Assembly (NCBI RefSeq): GCF_002443295.1
Contig: NZ_BAOS01000017.1
Location: 124,001 to 188,000, forward strand
Reading direction: 5' to 3'
DNA from: Candidatus Scalindua japonica
GTDB lineage: Bacteria > Planctomycetota > Brocadiia > Brocadiales > Scalinduaceae
Length of the DNA: 64,000 bases
The notes under the pieces are model-generated. The model was given only the letters and a program-made list of their open reading frames with translations, was not told the DNA's origin and searched no databases. The translations under genes were made by a program, and so were the position numbers. Within the stretch, counting starts at the first letter, position 1. Each line of letters opens with the position of its first letter. This document shows, in pieces, positions 43,404-55,481 of this stretch.

Positions 43404-46400
43404 TTAAAATGGGGAAAACACAAGACGAAACCCAATAACGTCGTCCCCGTCATCTGGATTGTCCCCGCCACGGTAAGCGCAACGCACGAACCCGCTGATA
43501 TTGTTGAAACAACCGCCACGAATAACTCGGTAACTATCTTTAGATTCATTCAGGTTTTCTCTTCCATCATCCGGAACATATGGATACTCCTTATAAATAC
43601 TTCGTGTCCATTCCCACACATTCCCGCTCATCTCCTCGCAGCCATAAGGAGTTACTCCTGTGGAAAAGCAACCTGCCGCACTGGTAGAGCCGATGCCTGT
43701 GTCGGAGTAATTCGCGCAATTCGTGTCAGGTTCATTTCCCCATGGATAGATGCGTTCCGGATCAGTGTTGGCTTCAAGCGTAGGAACACCAATTTTATTC
43801 ATATCGTTAACAGGTTTCATGAACTTTTTTATAGGTATCTCCAGACCACCACGTATTGCCTTCTCCCACTCAGCCTCGGTTGGTAGCTTTACTATGAGGT
43901 CGCCAGGGAGAATACCCTGATTTTTCCATACCTCATTCAACCATCGTGTAAATGCCAGAGACTCATACCACGTCACTCCGACAACCGGATGATCAGGCAG
44001 GGAAAACGGAATACTGAATTGATATGGCCCTTCTCTGAATGTATCATCCCACCTTCCCTTTACTTTTCCATCCTGCCATATTTTAACATCCTTTGCCTCT
44101 TTCCAATACTCTTCTTTTTTGTATCCACTATCATCTATAAATTTCTGAAATTGTGATTGTGTAACAGGATATTGAGAGATCCAGAAATCATGAGAAAGAG
44201 TATCATTCCGGTGCAAACCCTCTTTTTCACCCATCTGAAAATCTCCTTTCGGGACCAGGCAAAAAGGCATTTCATCTAGAGATATTACCTCTTTTCGCGC
44301 ATCGCCTATACGTGCCAGGTTGACACCGGCAGTTGTTCTCTCACCGGGAGGAAACGCGTTTATAGAGATGATCTCCCGTAGATAAAGTCTTACTTTTTCC
44401 AACTTTTTGCGGTTTGGTTCACTCAATTTAGTAAGATTTGTACTTTCAGCTAGAGCTTCAGCGGCAATGTGCGCGCCCCAGATATCTTCAGTTTTTTTGC
44501 TTATATCTTCCGGTTCGCAATAGCACATCGCATCTACGAATGTCCAGATTATCGAACTTGTTCCGCGGGCAGCTTTGGCACAGGCAAGCAGAGCTACCTC
44601 ACGCCAGCGATTTGGTTCTTTCCTGACCAGTTCGGCTATTTGATCCGGGAAGTCGGTATCTGTAAGATAGCAGGCTGAGAGATACTCCTGGAAAGTGCGA
44701 TGTGGAAATGTATAGACCTTAATACCACGAGGTAAGAGAATCCCTGCACGGTCAACGAGAAATTCTATCAGCCTCGCGGGTTTGACTTCAGGGTTATTAC
44801 TCAAATCTATTAAACCGCTTACCAGATCTTTTTCTGAAATATCAGCAGTCCCCATCACTTCAGGTTGGCATTTATGCACTGTAAAAGCAAGCTCGTTGAG
44901 TAAATTGCGTACCTTGTCCTTGTCTATTTTCAAGAATTCTGCAATGCTGGGTTGTAATACCTTGATCGTGCCATCCGATTTGCGAACTGTCTTGGGGGCC
45001 ACCCACCACTCAAGTAGCAGGTCTACGGTATCGGCATATAGCACTTCGCGTTTTTCCGGGAGGCTGCCGCCGCGCCATGCGTTCAAACTGGCCATAAGGG
45101 TCAGGAGCAGAGGCCGCTCGGCAAGGGCATACAGGCGGTTGTTTCCGGAGATCGTGCGTTTGAGTTTTTCCGCCTTCCCCTGCGCATCTACTCTGTTTGT
45201 GCCTCTTATATTAGCAGTGTGGATATACCAGTGATCAATAAAGTTGTTAATCTGTGCTCGACTGAATGGGGCGAGCACAGTTTCCGAAAATTCAGACAAA
45301 CGCCAGTCCTGCTTCTGATAGGCGTATGTACGGCTGGTAACGATTATACGGCACCGGTGGAACGTATCAGCAAAATCCTCAACGGACTGCCTTATCTGTG
45401 TTCGTCGTTTGTCTGCCTCCGGTACTTCGTCCAGACCGTCAAAGAAAACTAATCCGCCTTTTTCAATCAGCTCCTTTTTCAGATAGGCGGCATACTCTTT
45501 TAATGCGAGTTCCGATTCGACAAACTGCCATATATGATCAGAAGTGGCTTTTTCTCCGACCGGTGGCAGTCCACGGGCCGCGAAATCACGTAAAATTATC
45601 CGGACAGGCATCAATGCTCCATGATTCCATGGTTGGGGTTTTCTTTTCTCTTCATCCTCTTCCGGTAGCGGAGATCTCAGCATCTCAAGATTAATCTTTT
45701 CATCACCGAGAAATTCACCGCTAAAACAGAGGGCCGCGAAATTCACAAATGTACTTTTCCCACTGCCGGGATCTCCAAGAATAACCAGTCTATTGTGTAG
45801 ATCAAGTTGCTCCATCACTGATTGTCGGCGGCCCTCTCTTTCTGGAGATTTCTCCTTAAGCAGATTTTCGTGTTCTTCAGGAGTTAAGGTAATGAGCGCA
45901 GTATACACTGCGTCAAGTTTGAGTTGGGCTTCCTTCTCATCGATTACCGCTTTGGGATCAACTCCGGCAAGGGAGAGTTGCCGGCACTGTTGGAAAAGGT
46001 GGTTAAGATACACGTTGCGGAGGGCTATCGGGTCAAGGCTGTCAGAGGGCTGTATGAATACTGCGTCAGCTTTAATAAAAACATTTTCAAAACTCTGTAG
46101 ATTACCCATTCGGTCCAGTTCTTTCCGCAATGTCTCTTCAAACCATTTTCTGTCATCTTCACGAAGGGATTTTTCGGCATATGTTACAGCATCGAGCTTT
46201 TGAAGGAGTTCATCCAGCTCCTTGCGCAGGTCTTGATTGTTCTCGATTTCAGATTCAATCTTTTTTGCCGCGTCAGCTTCGTCTTTCCAGCCCTGGAGCC
46301 TGTTTGCGAGAAGGCTGGTACCCAGACCAGAAACGAGCTTGCCAAGTTCCATTATTGGGGCCAGATCACCACCATTTACTGCCTGTATTACCGGCAGGAG

Positions 46401-46517
46401 TGCGGAGGCGGAGACAAACGCGTAGATGGACTTTACCCCGGACTCTTTCATCCTTCCACTCCAGCCTTCGAAACGCTTTTTAAGATTTCCCTTCCATGAT
46501 TGGATTGAGAATGGCAT
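43404..46517 (-). CDS. NACHT NTPase with C-terminal formylglycine-generating-enzyme-like domain
   Basis: 1037 residues. Residues 1-230 have no named domain: a hydrophobic stretch at about 28-48 (VKSIYAFVSASALLPVIQA) and coiled-coil helices. NACHT: Walker A GDPGSGKST (248-256), Walker B GLVFFDGLDEVPE (near 355-366) and IIVTSRTYAY, then FPHRTFQEYLSACYL, typical of NACHT winged-helix parts. From about 757 there is an FGE-sulfatase domain: GDFQMGEKEG, ISQYPVTQSQFQKFI, VTWYESLAFTRWLNE, LPTEAEWEKAIRGG, GCEEMSGNVWEWTRS. The last 41 residues (RVIRGGCFNN to the end) resemble a diversity-generating variable region. STAND NTPases of this kind often act in phage defence or signalling. GGAGGTAC precedes the start. 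It lies between copA and a tolC-like gene. Confidence 0.88.
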   Translation of the reverse strand: MPFSIQSWKGNLKKRFEGWSGRMKESGVKSIYAFVSASALLPVIQAVNGGDLAPIMELGKLVSGLGTSLLANRLQGWKDEADAAKKIESEIENNQDLRKELDELLQKLDAVTYAEKSLREDDRKWFEETLRKELDRMGNLQSFENVFIKADAVFIQPSDSLDPIALRNVYLNHLFQQCRQLSLAGVDPKAVIDEKEAQLKLDAVYTALITLTPEEHENLLKEKSPEREGRRQSVMEQLDLHNRLVILGDPGSGKSTFVNFAALCFSGEFLGDEKINLEMLRSPLPEEDEEKRKPQPWNHGALMPVRIILRDFAARGLPPVGEKATSDHIWQFVESELALKEYAAYLKKELIEKGGLVFFDGLDEVPEADKRRTQIRQSVEDFADTFHRCRIIVTSRTYAYQKQDWRLSEFSETVLAPFSRAQINNFIDHWYIHTANIRGTNRVDAQGKAEKLKRTISGNNRLYALAERPLLLTLMASLNAWRGGSLPEKREVLYADTVDLLLEWWVAPKTVRKSDGTIKVLQPSIAEFLKIDKDKVRNLLNELAFTVHKCQPEVMGTADISEKDLVSGLIDLSNNPEVKPARLIEFLVDRAGILLPRGIKVYTFPHRTFQEYLSACYLTDTDFPDQIAELVRKEPNRWREVALLACAKAARGTSSIIWTFVDAMCYCEPEDISKKTEDIWGAHIAAEALAESTNLTKLSEPNRKKLEKVRLYLREIISINAFPPGERTTAGVNLARIGDARKEVISLDEMPFCLVPKGDFQMGEKEGLHRNDTLSHDFWISQYPVTQSQFQKFIDDSGYKKEEYWKEAKDVKIWQDGKVKGRWDDTFREGPYQFSIPFSLPDHPVVGVTWYESLAFTRWLNEVWKNQGILPGDLIVKLPTEAEWEKAIRGGLEIPIKKFMKPVNDMNKIGVPTLEANTDPERIYPWGNEPDTNCANYSDTGIGSTSAAGCFSTGVTPYGCEEMSGNVWEWTRSIYKEYPYVPDDGRENLNESKDSYRVIRGGCFNNISGFVRCAYRGGDNPDDGDDVIGFRLVFSPF
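43425..43530 (-). other. Candidate hypervariable tail (C-type-lectin-fold VR-like) of the NACHT-FGE protein
   Basis: Codes for RVIRGGCFNNISGFVRCAYR followed by GGDNPDDGDDVIGFR. Invariant positions of the RGG...R(C/S)A.R...P....GFR pattern are kept, and at positions where template repeats of diversity-generating retroelements usually code Asn (AAC/AAT), this gene has ATC, AGC, TTC, TAC, GGC, GAC and GTT. That fits adenine-directed change but does not prove it. No template repeat or reverse transcriptase was recognised in the window. Confidence 0.4.
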
Positions 46518-51322: not shown

Positions 51323-52492
51323 TCATGCCTGACTATCCTCATATAGTGGAGACATCTCTCTCAACCTTTTTATAATAGGAGGGACTGTTTCCAGTACATA
51401 TTCAATATGTGCTTCTGTATTATCTATCCCCAGGCTGAAGAGTATCGAACCCTGGGCTACCGCGTCTTCTACCCCGATTGCGCTCAACACATGTGATGAT
51501 TTCAGTGATCTGGAGGTACACGCCGAACCTGAAGAGACCGCTATTCCCTTCCTGTCTAAGAACAGAAGTATAGACTCTCCTTCAACATATTCTACACTGA
51601 TATTTATATTGTTTGGTAATCGTTTTTCAGGGTGACCGTTAAGATAGATATAATCTACGGAATCCATCAAGCCGTTTAGTAGTCTATCACGCAATGGCTT
51701 TATTTTCGCATTACGCACATCCATCTCTCTCTTTGCCAATTCCGCAGCTTTCCCCATACCCACTATTCCGGGTATATTCTCCGTACCGGCACGACGCCCC
51801 CCTTCCTGCACACCTCCTTCTATAAAAGGCACGATTCTTGTTTTCTCCCTCAGGTATAGCGCGCCTGCCCCTGGTGGGCCATAAAACTGGCTGCCGGACA
51901 GGCTTATGGCATCAGCCATCATTGTGTTAACGTCTACCGGTATATTACCTGCTGACGCCACGGCATCAACATGAAAGGTTATACCTTTCTCCTTAACGAT
52001 TTTTCCGATTTCTTCAATTGGCTGAATAGTACCTATTTCACTATTTGCATGCATTATTGAAACGAGAGCAGTCTCGGGCGTAATTGCCCTTGAAATCTCA
52101 TCCGGATCTACCATACCATATTTATCGACAGGTACATGTGTAATTTCAAAATCCATTTTTTTCAATTTTTTCAGTGGATTAAGAATTGAGAAATGTTCTA
52201 TACTGGAGGTAATTATGTGTTTCCCCTTCTTCTTGTTTGCCGTTGCAAGACCTCTAATAGCAAAATTATTTGCTTCACTTCCACTTGATGTAAATATTAT
52301 CTCTTCAGCTTTTGCTCCTATGAGTGACGCCACTTCTCCCCTTGCGGTCATAACTGCTTTTCCCGCAATCTGCCCGAAATAATGCAGGTTTGAAGGGTTG
52401 CCATAACAGTTTTTTATAGAATCTACCATTGCATCAGCAACTAATGGATGAATTGGCGTACATGACGCATGATCAAGGTATATTTTATCCAT
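51323..52492 (-). CDS. Cysteine desulfurase (NifS/IscS) homologue lacking the PLP lysine
   Basis: 389 residues, full length. The start YLDHASCTPIHPLVADAM, FTSSGSEANNFAIRGLA, SIEHFSILNPLKKL (His near 100), HVDAVASAG and RAGTENIPGIVGMGKAAELA all match the family, and the sulfur-carrying loop is present with C325 in SSGSACTSRSLKSSHVL. But the motif SGHKIYGPKG, whose lysine binds PLP, reads SGSQFYGPPG: Q202 stands at the lysine position and Ser at the histidine. An archaeal IscS (Archaeoglobus fulgidus) also lacks this lysine. Scaffold, sulfur-carrier or a changed reaction are possible. GGAG lies eight bases before the ATG. No iscU or thiI partner is next to it. Confidence 0.9.
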   Translation of the reverse strand: MDKIYLDHASCTPIHPLVADAMVDSIKNCYGNPSNLHYFGQIAGKAVMTARGEVASLIGAKAEEIIFTSSGSEANNFAIRGLATANKKKGKHIITSSIEHFSILNPLKKLKKMDFEITHVPVDKYGMVDPDEISRAITPETALVSIMHANSEIGTIQPIEEIGKIVKEKGITFHVDAVASAGNIPVDVNTMMADAISLSGSQFYGPPGAGALYLREKTRIVPFIEGGVQEGGRRAGTENIPGIVGMGKAAELAKREMDVRNAKIKPLRDRLLNGLMDSVDYIYLNGHPEKRLPNNINISVEYVEGESILLFLDRKGIAVSSGSACTSRSLKSSHVLSAIGVEDAVAQGSILFSLGIDNTEAHIEYVLETVPPIIKRLREMSPLYEDSQA

Positions 52493-52526: not shown

Positions 52527-54767
52527 TTACCGACAGTATCCTTCTATCTTTTCTAAATTCGCGTATTCCAGCGCCAGCTTTTTCATGCCGACATTATTGA
52601 AATCAACATGTACTGTGTCTGAAGAGGGAGCTATCTTTACAACTCTGCCACGGCCAAAAATTGCGTGCTTTACAATATCTCCTGAAACCAATTCAATACT
52701 ATCTCGCGGTTCATCAATCTGGAATTCCGGCAACTCATCATACCCACCCTCTCCCGCATCATATTGATAGTCATCCTCCCCTGCCGATTCTCTGCCTCTC
52801 TTTGTATATTCGGTACGCAGTTTACCATTGTAGGAATTATAGTCTGTTTTATCTATCTCCTCAACAACATCAAAAGGTATCTCACTTAAAAATCTTGATG
52901 GTATACAGGCGGAACGCTGACCGTATTTTGCCCGATATCTGGTATGGGACAGAAACAGGTCCCTTTGCGCCCTTGTAATGCCCACATAGCACAAACGACG
53001 CTCTTCTTCAATATCATCATCCGAATCCTTTGATTGCGAATGGGGCAATAAACCTTCCTCCAGGCCTGTGATGAAAACAACGGGAAATTCCAGGCCTTTT
53101 GCAGCATGCAACGTCATCAGAGTAACGGTATCTATTGTATCGTCCCATTTGTCAATATCAGAAATTAATGCCACCTCCTCTAAAAAACCCTGTAGCGAAC
53201 CTTCCGGGTTTGAAACATCATACTCACTGGCAGCGTTCACCAGTTCCTCAATATTCTCCAATCTCTCTTCGCTATCACCTTCATAAGATTGCACCATATA
53301 ATCTACGTATCTAATTTTCTGAATAACCTGTTTTACAAACTCCATTACCGGATAAACCGGTGACTTACGTAATTCAGCAACAATATTCCGGAAGTTATTT
53401 ACTGATTTGGAACTTTTCGCCTTGATTTCCGGAATTTCACGGACTCTGGAAATCGCCTCTGACATATTGGTATTATGCGATACCGCCCACTCTTTTAATC
53501 GCTTTATAGTCGTTGGACCAATACCTCTTGCGGGGACATTTACAACTCTTTCAAAAGAGAGATCATCATCCGGGTTGGCGCAGAGTTTGAGGTAAGAAAG
53601 GAGATCTTTAATCTCTTTTCTTTTGAAGAATTCAACACTACCAACAATTGAGTAAGGTATTCCAGCCCGTAGCATACAAGCTTCCAACACACGTGACTGT
53701 GCGTTTGTACGATAGAATACCGCTATATCAGAGTGTCTGTTTCCACCCTGAATAAATTCAGAAATTTTTTCAGCAATTTCCTTCGCTTCACCATTCTCAT
53801 CCTCACAATGAATAATCCTGACCTTGCTCCCTTTGCTGTTTTCCGTCCAGAGTAATTTCGGCTTCCTTGAGAGATTATTATTAATTATTTCTGAAGCAAC
53901 ATGAAGAATGTTCTTCGTTGAGCGGTAGTTTTGTTCCAGTTTGACTGTCTTTGTATCAGGATAGTCCTTTTCAAAATTCAGTATGTTCCGTATGTTGGCA
54001 CCGCGCCAGCCATAAATAGATTGATCAGGGTCTCCGGTAGCACATATATTTTCATACTTTTGTGCCAGAAGTTGAGTAATTGCGTATTGCGCGTGATTTG
54101 TGTCCTGATACTCATCAATAAGTATATACCTGAATTTCTCCTGATATTTCTCCAACACTTCTGGAAAATTATTAAATATATGTACAACCTTGAAAAGCAG
54201 ATCGTCAAAATCCAACGCATTATTTGCCTCAAGATATTGCTGATATTTGGTGTATACCTTTGAAACAACGTCATTGTAATAACCTGATTTATACTCCGCA
54301 AATTTTTCAGATGACAGTAACTCATTCTTTGCGTTACTAATAGATGCCGCAACCGCACTCGGCCGCCAGTTAGTAGTATCCAGGTTCAGTTCATTCATGG
54401 CGTCCTTTATGCACTTAATCTGGTCTCCGGAATCGTAAATACTGAAATTTTTTGTAAAGTCCAGATGCTCAATCTCACTACGTAATATCCTGGAACACAT
54501 GGAGTGAAATGTAGAGATCCACATTCCTCTGAGATCAAGAAATTCACCCAACCGCTCTTTCATCTCATTAGCGGCTTTATTAGTGAAAGTTATTGACAGA
54601 ATATTTGCCGGAGGAGTTCCCTTTTCAACAAGGTATCCGACCCTGCGGGTAATTACCCTTGTTTTACCGCTACCAGCCCCGGCAATCACGAGCAATGGGC
54701 CTTCTATATGGGTTATTGCTTCTTTTTGGGCTTCAGTTACGTTGTCCAGGATGTTCATATTACTCAT
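52527..54767 (-). CDS. pcrA: UvrD/PcrA-type superfamily 1 DNA helicase
   Basis: 746 residues. Motif I in LLVIAGAGSGKTRVITRR (residues 25-42), Ia in ILSITFTNKAANEMKER, II in YILIDEYQDTNHAQY, III in CATGDPDQSIYGWRGAN, IV in VKLEQNYRSTKNI, V in VTLMTLHAAKGLEFPVVF and VI in LCYVGITRAQRDLFLSH. The C-terminus ends with GDIVKHAIFGRGRVVKI, the Tudor-like tail that binds RNA polymerase in PcrA. It repairs and restarts DNA replication and backs up stalled polymerase. It starts near an ATG at 54767 with a second ATG at 54758. Confidence 0.94.
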   Translation of the reverse strand: MSNMNILDNVTEAQKEAITHIEGPLLVIAGAGSGKTRVITRRVGYLVEKGTPPANILSITFTNKAANEMKERLGEFLDLRGMWISTFHSMCSRILRSEIEHLDFTKNFSIYDSGDQIKCIKDAMNELNLDTTNWRPSAVAASISNAKNELLSSEKFAEYKSGYYNDVVSKVYTKYQQYLEANNALDFDDLLFKVVHIFNNFPEVLEKYQEKFRYILIDEYQDTNHAQYAITQLLAQKYENICATGDPDQSIYGWRGANIRNILNFEKDYPDTKTVKLEQNYRSTKNILHVASEIINNNLSRKPKLLWTENSKGSKVRIIHCEDENGEAKEIAEKISEFIQGGNRHSDIAVFYRTNAQSRVLEACMLRAGIPYSIVGSVEFFKRKEIKDLLSYLKLCANPDDDLSFERVVNVPARGIGPTTIKRLKEWAVSHNTNMSEAISRVREIPEIKAKSSKSVNNFRNIVAELRKSPVYPVMEFVKQVIQKIRYVDYMVQSYEGDSEERLENIEELVNAASEYDVSNPEGSLQGFLEEVALISDIDKWDDTIDTVTLMTLHAAKGLEFPVVFITGLEEGLLPHSQSKDSDDDIEEERRLCYVGITRAQRDLFLSHTRYRAKYGQRSACIPSRFLSEIPFDVVEEIDKTDYNSYNGKLRTEYTKRGRESAGEDDYQYDAGEGGYDELPEFQIDEPRDSIELVSGDIVKHAIFGRGRVVKIAPSSDTVHVDFNNVGMKKLALEYANLEKIEGYCR

Positions 54768-54836: not shown

Positions 54837-55481
54837 TCATTTCTTCTGTGCTATCAAACTCACCACTGACTTATTCTCTGCTATCTCACCTTCTCTATAA
54901 AAAAGAATACGGAAATCTCTGAAAGAATTGAGAAGTTCATTGTGCTTCAGTAGATATGCCGGATTTTTGGGTCCGGGCGCGTCTTTTCCATATTTCATCT
55001 GATCAATAGAGTATGTCTCAAACATAACCATACCACCCTTTCTAAGGCCCTCCTTGATCTGGGGGATAAGGTCTTTCTGTGTATAATAAAAACAGGTAAT
55101 GAGATCATACTTATCAGAGGGGATTTTATATTCCTCCAGATCAGCTGCAAATGCGTTCAGCGTCACACCACTTTCCCGAGCGAAAAGCCTGGCTTTCTCA
55201 ACTGCTTTATCTGAAATATCACAACCGTCAACAGCAAAACCGTTTCCGGCAAGAAATACAGCGTTTCTCCCTTCTCCCATAGCCAGTACCAGGGCCTTGC
55301 CTCTCACCAGAATGTCCAACTTATCTTTAAGAAACTTTAACGGTTCTTTACCATAGATATACTCTCTGGAGTTGTAACGTTTGTTCCATCTATTCCTGTC
55401 ATCTTCACCGGCACAAACAATCTGTCCAAAACAGAAGAATAAGAGAGAGAGGGTTATTGTGGAAATTAATATCATTTTCAT
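54837..55481 (-). CDS. SAM-dependent methyltransferase with signal peptide
   Basis: 214 residues. The N-terminus MKMILISTITLSLLFFCFGQ then IVCAGEDD is a good Sec signal, cleaved near VCA-G. The body is a class I methyltransferase: WNKRYNSREYIYGKEPLKFL, motif I ALVLAMGEGRNAVFLAGNG, acidic end of strand 2 in VDGCDISDKAVEKA, AFAADLEEYKIPSDKYD, and ITCFYYTQKDLIPQIKEGLR (the TehB/TPMT-like subgroup). Such enzymes are cytosolic because SAM is cytosolic, so export would be odd. In planctomycetes with internal compartments the signal could direct the protein to another space. It could also be a membrane anchor. Confidence 0.8.
   Translation of the reverse strand: MKMILISTITLSLLFFCFGQIVCAGEDDRNRWNKRYNSREYIYGKEPLKFLKDKLDILVRGKALVLAMGEGRNAVFLAGNGFAVDGCDISDKAVEKARLFARESGVTLNAFAADLEEYKIPSDKYDLITCFYYTQKDLIPQIKEGLRKGGMVMFETYSIDQMKYGKDAPGPKNPAYLLKHNELLNSFRDFRILFYREGEIAENKSVVSLIAQKK

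Follow-up and report, generated by a model that had tools for sequence, protein, structure and literature searches.

A Scalindua IscS homologue without the Schiff-base lysine: a possible sulfur-accepting or cluster-ligating partner of IscU

What question does this locus raise?

What does a cysteine desulfurase become once it has lost the lysine that holds its pyridoxal 5'-phosphate (PLP) cofactor? The question is raised by a gene of Candidatus Scalindua japonica that lies on the minus strand, at 51323..52492, of a 64,000-nucleotide stretch of its genome (contig NZ_BAOS01000017.1, positions 124,001 to 188,000; here called the window), and whose open reading frame, with its ATG at 52492, encodes a full-length homologue of IscS/NifS of 389 residues. 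Where the lysine should stand this protein has a glutamine, Gln202, and we can say plainly that the glutamine is real, selected and clade-wide, and that the gene is not a pseudogene. What the protein does is a harder matter. The answer we favour, to which we give a probability of about one half, is that it would be a partner of IscU and not a working cysteine desulfurase, and that its Cys325 would take sulfur formed beforehand, ligate the nascent iron–sulfur cluster, or both. The loss of desulfurase activity, the direction of sulfur flow and the identity of the partner in Scalindua are all things that we infer from sequence.

Is the missing lysine real?

The answer is yes. Residue roles were read throughout by alignment to E. 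coli IscS, and at the position of Lys206, which forms the Schiff base with PLP, the Scalindua gene has the codon CAG (51887..51889, minus strand), which stands within codons 199-203 as TCC GGC AGC CAG TTT and lies in the motif SGSQFYGPPG. The first-pass annotation, made from the letters of the window, had reported this glutamine together with a change of the neighbouring histidine, and frame, strand and residues are indeed as it gave them, with Ser201 (51890..51892, minus strand) for E. coli His205. It had also counted a second lysine as changed, with GPPG for GPKG; this is so in Brocadiales, but the lysine is kept in most Chloroflexi relatives and so has no place in the signature. Its further claim, that a frameshift is not the cause, stands, the minus-strand reading being open and Gln being found at the Lys position in 30/30 orthologous loci read from the organism's own order (own gene included). 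In a search of 59 genomes of that order, again with the own genome included and with matches listed at identities of at least 58%, a relative is present in 14 of the 17 genomes of the own family, in 29/30 genomes of family f5, one partial, and in 2/9 of family f2, with none at that identity in families f3 (1 genome) and f4 (2 genomes).

The survey of relatives for the glutamine form that had been proposed reaches well beyond the order. A scan of a collection of species genomes gave 395 relatives, and the best 80 of these, which we call the named relatives, are mostly metagenome-assembled genomes (MAGs), some of whose taxon labels may reflect misbinning. Among these best 80 of 395 the closest is 92% identical, and the names run from Scalindua, Brocadia, Jettenia, Kuenenia and Loosdrechtia to Dehalococcoidia and other Chloroflexi, and further to Nitrospirae, Deltaproteobacteria, Aerophobetes, Omnitrophota and Clostridia. 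Gln holds the Lys position in 75, Met in 2, and Gly, Arg and Lys in 1 each, so that 79/80 are without the lysine and the glutamine is fixed in a large clade. Of the glutamine codons 46 are CAG and 29 are CAA, and pairwise ratios of nonsynonymous to synonymous substitution rates (dN/dS) among Scalindua are 0.06-0.11; because of this silent variation and these ratios, we regard the glutamine as held by selection. One base change can turn Lys to Gln, which is what might be said for an error, but a sequencing error, a frameshift or a pseudogene is ruled out by the clade-wide fixation, the silent codon variation and the dN/dS of 0.06-0.11, and we leave it almost no chance.

What else has been lost, and what has been kept?

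A tree of 69 type I sequences (IQ-TREE, 1000 ultrafast bootstraps, four trait columns removed) places every bacterial Lys-less form that it holds, the paralogues with Thr, Ser, Pro or Ala at the Lys position among them, in one clade (100/99), and it is in the 49 rows of this clade, set beside 18 Lys-bearing homologues (E. coli not counted), that the other catalytic residues were followed. We take Arg354 of E. coli IscS to be the arginine that holds the substrate carboxylate, Asn155 to share this role, Gln183 to contact the PLP hydroxyl, Asp180 to be the pyridine aspartate and His104 to stack on PLP. In the Scalindua protein, where all residues are encoded on the minus strand, Leu351 (51440..51442) stands for Arg354 and Ala179 (51956..51958) for Gln183, so that the substrate-carboxylate arginine is missing along with the Schiff-base lysine. 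Across the clade, R354 is lost in 49/49 rows, K206 in 48/49, Q183 in 45/49 and H205 in 44/49, and the N155 equivalent is retained in just 17/49, while all five residues are present in 18/18 Lys-bearing homologues. The Lys position itself varies (Q, M, G, R, T, S, P, A), and the R354 position is Leu, Thr, Val or His, not Lys. In E. coli IscS, K206A, Q183E and H104Q are inactive and R354K is active, according to an extract of PMC9978102. The joint loss of the R354 and Q183 equivalents and the relaxation of N155 go beyond what the first-pass annotation had noticed.

It had also held that the sulfur-carrying loop and the fold are kept, and this is borne out. The persulfide cysteine of the mobile loop, Cys325 (51518..51520; E. 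coli Cys328), lies in SSGSACTS and is found in 80/80 named relatives, as are Asp176 (51965..51967; Asp180) and His100 (52193..52195; His104), and within the clade C328, H104, D180 and R240 are retained in 49/49 rows and T243 in 47/49. The protein matches Pfam Aminotran_5 (PF00266) at 3.8e-80, which gives it the aminotransferase class V fold, and its AlphaFold2 model (mean predicted local distance difference test score, pLDDT, of 90.6) has human NFS1 (E 1.4e-48), A. fulgidus IscS and E. coli IscS as best Foldseek matches, with the E. coli IscS structures 3LVL and 3LVJ also among the matches. The equivalog model for desulfurases TIGR03402 is not reached (511 against a cut-off of 530.75), nor are the cut-offs of TIGR02006 and NF010611, and the broad IscS subfamily model NF002806 is passed (324.2, cut-off 304). 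In addition, the C-terminal SPLY tail is conserved, in the IscU-binding region; in E. coli IscS, IscU binding has been mapped with a C-terminal deletion in the SPL tail region (excerpt of PMC2854127).

Which genes does it travel with?

In relatives, the gene keeps company with iscU and with genes for sulfur carriers. Counted as same-strand matches within 6 kb, and with loci shortened by contig ends included, IscU is near 58 of the 80 named loci, TusA near 48, a helicase near 28 and DsrE2 near 24, and a Cys-rich protein is near 35/80, some of its matches overlapping the IscU frame; Pfam matches on examples confirmed neighbour families such as TusA and DsrE2. In Brocadiaceae the genes for the methyltransferase and then the helicase come before iscS(Gln), and iscU and then tusA after it, in some with a 180-residue protein inserted before iscU. 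Dehalococcoidia and others have iscS(Gln) followed by iscU, by the gene of a small Cys-rich protein and lastly by dsrE2 and tusA, whose order varies. As a control, 41 genomes of the class of the chromosome record CP070819 were searched and the best-match locus of 30 was read, giving 12 Lys-less and 18 Lys-bearing loci (the 11 other genomes were without a fetched locus or without a match). With neighbour profiles that were built from Lys-less neighbourhoods, and that somewhat favour Lys-less loci, IscU lies downstream of 10 of the 12 Lys-less loci, the Cys-rich protein of 10, DsrE2 of 8 and TusA of 8; downstream of the Lys-bearing loci, one of which had no room, IscU was found in 8/18, TusA in 0/18 and DsrE2 in 0/18.

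Two features of these loci may be recorded here. At one locus (L121) a Lys-less iscS-iscU-tusA-dsrE2 set is preceded, directly upstream (of 8001), by an iscS-iscU pair whose IscS has the Lys. The small Cys-rich (CxxC) protein, of 61-76 residues, sits between iscU and dsrE2/tusA, for example at L115 and L133; it has no Pfam match and is possibly part of the same system.

At the Scalindua locus, the gene directly upstream (52527..54767, minus strand) is for a UvrD/PcrA-type helicase, named by sequence reading, which is a neighbour in many Brocadiales, and a methyltransferase-like gene further upstream (54837..55481, minus strand) is conserved with the helicase in Brocadiales. Scans of the 64-kb window for transfer RNAs and Rfam families gave no matches, and a promoter and terminator scan found no terminator-like site on the minus strand around the gene, and 22 promoter-like sites against a shuffle mean of 12.4, a number that we do not use as evidence. 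Elsewhere in the window, 43404-46517 encodes a 1037-residue protein that looks like a NACHT-type NTPase joined to a formylglycine-enzyme-like domain (names by sequence reading only), and a related open reading frame is found elsewhere in the Scalindua genome (L044; cluster c18).

Is there an ordinary desulfurase in the same cell?

In Scalindua there are several candidates. The search for a normal IscS that the annotation had advised was made in the Scalindua genome (G000; 4.8 Mb in 47 contigs) at E 1e-5, and it gave eight matches, namely the Gln form, a second Lys-less paralogue with Thr at the Lys position (L002), four full paralogues in which no catalytic residue is missing (L003-L006), a SufS-like match that is partial and has Lys (L007) and a weak, distant match (L008). 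NifU_N domains occur in one stand-alone IscU (contig C45) and one NifU (C4). The stand-alone IscU falls among those that accompany Lys-less IscS (95/83), and the row closest to it in the tree is the IscU beside the Ala-form IscS of genome G018; because of this grouping the likely partner of the Gln form is this IscU at another locus, which may serve the Thr form too. TusA genes are found at C22 and C28 and a DsrE2-like gene at C28.

On the last of these contigs (L214, 6590-10651; G000:C28 236000+), siroheme-synthase-like, sulfite-reductase-like, DsrE2-like and JAMM-protease-like genes precede TusA and a Rieske/cytochrome b set, all names except TusA and DsrE2 being by sequence reading. L038 (8462-9646, contig C13 of G000) and L069-L074 hold a second Lys-less paralogue, in which Thr, Ser or Pro occupies the Lys position and Thr replaces Arg354; thioredoxin adjoins it in 7/7 contexts and a DsbD-type membrane protein in 5/7. 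A Lys-less NifS linked in this way to thioredoxin and DsbD appears to be a distinct variant with a redox connection.

Of particular interest are two single-contig chromosome records, CP070819 and CP070693, both MAGs. The class V aminotransferase matches of CP070819 are the Lys-less protein and a truncated copy of the same protein, and those of CP070693 are the Lys-less protein and a distant aminotransferase; no Lys-bearing NifS homologue was found in the search of either MAG record. Each has one IscU, which is the neighbour of the Lys-less gene, and CP070819 has no SufB/D core and CP070693 has one. L133 comes from a genome record with a Lys-less copy only. Such genomes are not the rule, since in the control set from the class of CP070819 the other 11 genomes with a Lys-less locus have, each of them, a further match at 50-55% identity, known by identity alone.

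So what might the protein do?

The first-pass annotation assigned no function. The further residues that are missing, taken with the neighbouring genes, speak for a partner of IscU that accepts sulfur or ligates a cluster. We picture a catalytically retired IscS that would have been retained as a working partner of IscU, having kept the fold, the base of the PLP pocket, the mobile Cys325 loop and the C-terminal tail, and having given up together the Schiff-base Lys, the substrate-carboxylate Arg, the Gln to the PLP hydroxyl and the His beside the Lys. Because the desulfuration residues are lost together, cysteine would not be the sulfur source on this protein. Sulfur might instead arrive at Cys325 already mobilised as persulfide, most likely via TusA and/or DsrE2, although sulfide, or an ordinary NifS in the same cell, could also supply it, and Cys325 would then pass it to IscU and/or ligate the forming [2Fe-2S] cluster. 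TusA and IscU are both partners of IscS (PMC2854127, in the part cited), and sulfide alone suffices to persulfurate DsrE (PMC3397948, likewise in part).

Several observations weigh against this reading. At the Scalindua locus the gene is beside neither iscU nor tusA, and two divergent Lys-less loci (L187 and L188, with Arg and Pro at the Lys position) are without IscU, TusA, DsrE2 and Cys-rich genes. The TusA-binding residues of E. coli IscS (W45, E49, D52, D65) are not specially conserved in Lys-less IscS and offer no useful contrast between Lys-less and Lys-bearing forms. Four clade members retain Gln183, and the full retention of the Asp180 and His104 equivalents means that PLP may still be bound and used. 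Most genomes also have homologues counted as Lys-bearing, so that the Lys-less copy need not be the main machine. Finally, one clade member (L157, 5026-6177) is alone in having the Lys; it too has lost Arg354, its neighbourhood includes tusA and iscU, and it could be a reversion or a recombinant. The IscU of L157 groups with IscU partners of Lys-bearing IscS.

The alternative that survives best would make the protein a pure co-ligand or structural partner, holding IscU and lending Cys325 as fourth ligand of a [2Fe-2S] cluster assembled from iron and free sulfide; no persulfide would be relayed, and TusA and DsrE2 would serve other pathways. Such a role has been reported for A. fulgidus IscS (parts of PMC7585200 and PMC9769115), whose replacements are the same, and it agrees with the absence of tusA/dsrE2 linkage at the Scalindua locus; the recurrent linkage to tusA and dsrE2, among the compared loci only in the Lys-less ones, argues the other way, and we think it a serious contender that is nonetheless unlikely.

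A PLP- or pyridoxamine 5'-phosphate (PMP)-dependent enzyme of some other chemistry, needing no Schiff-base Lys, strikes us as improbable. Some sugar dehydratases do carry out PLP/PMP chemistry without such a lysine, and the Asp180 and His104 equivalents would then have been retained because the cofactor still works, as the presence of His100 and Asp176 in 80/80 would suggest; the figure legend for A. fulgidus 4EB5 in PMC9769115, seen as an excerpt, shows PLP present without the Lys. However, the substrate-carboxylate Arg is lost in every clade member and Asn155 in most, the residue at the Lys position varies from one clade member to another, which does not resemble the behaviour of a new catalytic residue, and the genomic linkage is to IscU.

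Could it regulate, or form a heterodimer with, an ordinary NifS/IscS of its own cell, for example as a dead subunit that tunes an active one? Scalindua has its four intact paralogues, and in L121 a Lys-bearing iscS-iscU pair stands directly upstream, but CP070819 and CP070693 show no Lys-bearing NifS homologue with which it might pair, and an IscU neighbour of its own suggests a separate machine, so that we consider this decidedly improbable.

An ordinary desulfurase that uses another lysine would be more surprising still. The candidate is Lys331 of the Cys loop (51500..51502; E. coli Glu334), which is Lys in 78/80 named relatives and Glu or Asp in 17/18 Lys-bearing homologues, but the Thr/Ser/Pro/Ala sub-group is without Lys at 331, one homologue with the normal Lys has Lys at 331 as well, and the substrate Arg is lost throughout the clade. 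Indeed, when a replacement lysine was sought in the alignment, no Lys column was fixed in the clade, the nearest being K112 (92%; Arg in E. coli) and K331 (86%).

Why does it matter?

These proteins pass the broad NF002806 model and would be named cysteine desulfurases, and as a result anammox bacteria, Dehalococcoidia and other groups are assumed to draw on cysteine for their iron–sulfur synthesis. Should the enzyme be dead, and TusA/DsrE2 or sulfide supply it with pre-formed sulfur, the assumption would be wrong for a whole clade of anaerobes, and the field would gain a bacterial, operon-defined case for testing how clusters are built without a desulfurase, with natural contrasts in L121, where Lys-bearing and Lys-less copies stand in tandem, and L133, where the Lys-less copy stands alone. 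More tentatively, and with rather less confidence than we have in the reading for Scalindua, we suggest that many anaerobic bacteria may assemble clusters without a cysteine desulfurase, a Lys-less IscS working in reverse to take persulfide from DsrE2/TusA (ultimately from sulfide or another sulfur source) onto its Cys and on to IscU; in at least some genomes this would be the sole recognisable NifS/IscU/Suf machinery, so that cysteine need not be the source of cluster sulfur. The loss of the lysine is itself known in archaea, and what is new is the bacterial breadth, the co-lost residues and the sulfur-carrier operon; searches of open-access PMC showed, among the titles and abstracts listed, no earlier description of the Gln-type clade or of the linkage to tusA/dsrE2.

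How does it compare with known systems?

The archaeal precedent invoked at the outset by the first-pass annotation is a sound one. Like the Scalindua protein, A. fulgidus IscS (PDB 4EB5, 4EB7 and 4HVK; D199K mutant 4R5F) has the Lys and the equivalents of Gln183, His205 and Arg354 all replaced, the chain reading A176, N198, D199 and L347 at the Gln183, His205, Lys206 and Arg354 positions, and the Cys loop is kept in both. Unlike the Scalindua protein, it has Asp at the Lys position, keeps the Asn155 equivalent and falls outside the bacterial Lys-less clade in the tree, although a joint clade is not rejected (approximately unbiased (AU) test, p 0.329). The title of 4HVK calls it an 'unusual L-cysteine desulfurase', whereas a 2015 title by Pagnier denies it desulfurase activity. 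We have taken its inactivity from a statement in the part of PMC7585200 that concerns it, in which it has no desulfurase activity, works with IscU and contributes a cysteine as ligand of the IscU [2Fe-2S] cluster. M. acetivorans IscS1 (MA0808), as described in this extract too, lies beside iscU1, has the Cys loop STGSACFS and is, like the Scalindua protein, without the catalytic Lys.

E. coli IscS with IscU and TusA shares the fold, the Cys loop and the C-terminal SPL tail region, but it has Lys206, Gln183, His205 and Arg354 and donates sulfur to TusA, whereas here TusA is the proposed donor. In the MIS system (MisS/MisU), as an excerpt of PMC12442378 describes it, IscS and IscU form a pair and the other genes of the isc operon are absent. 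By that description it may resemble the IscS-IscU pair near 58/80 named relatives, the two genes being non-adjacent in the Scalindua genome. Lastly, the TusA-DsrE2 relay of sulfur oxidisers, which we take to feed sulfur oxidation, draws on the same two families that stand in the operon of the relatives, with the difference that here they are linked to an IscS-IscU pair.
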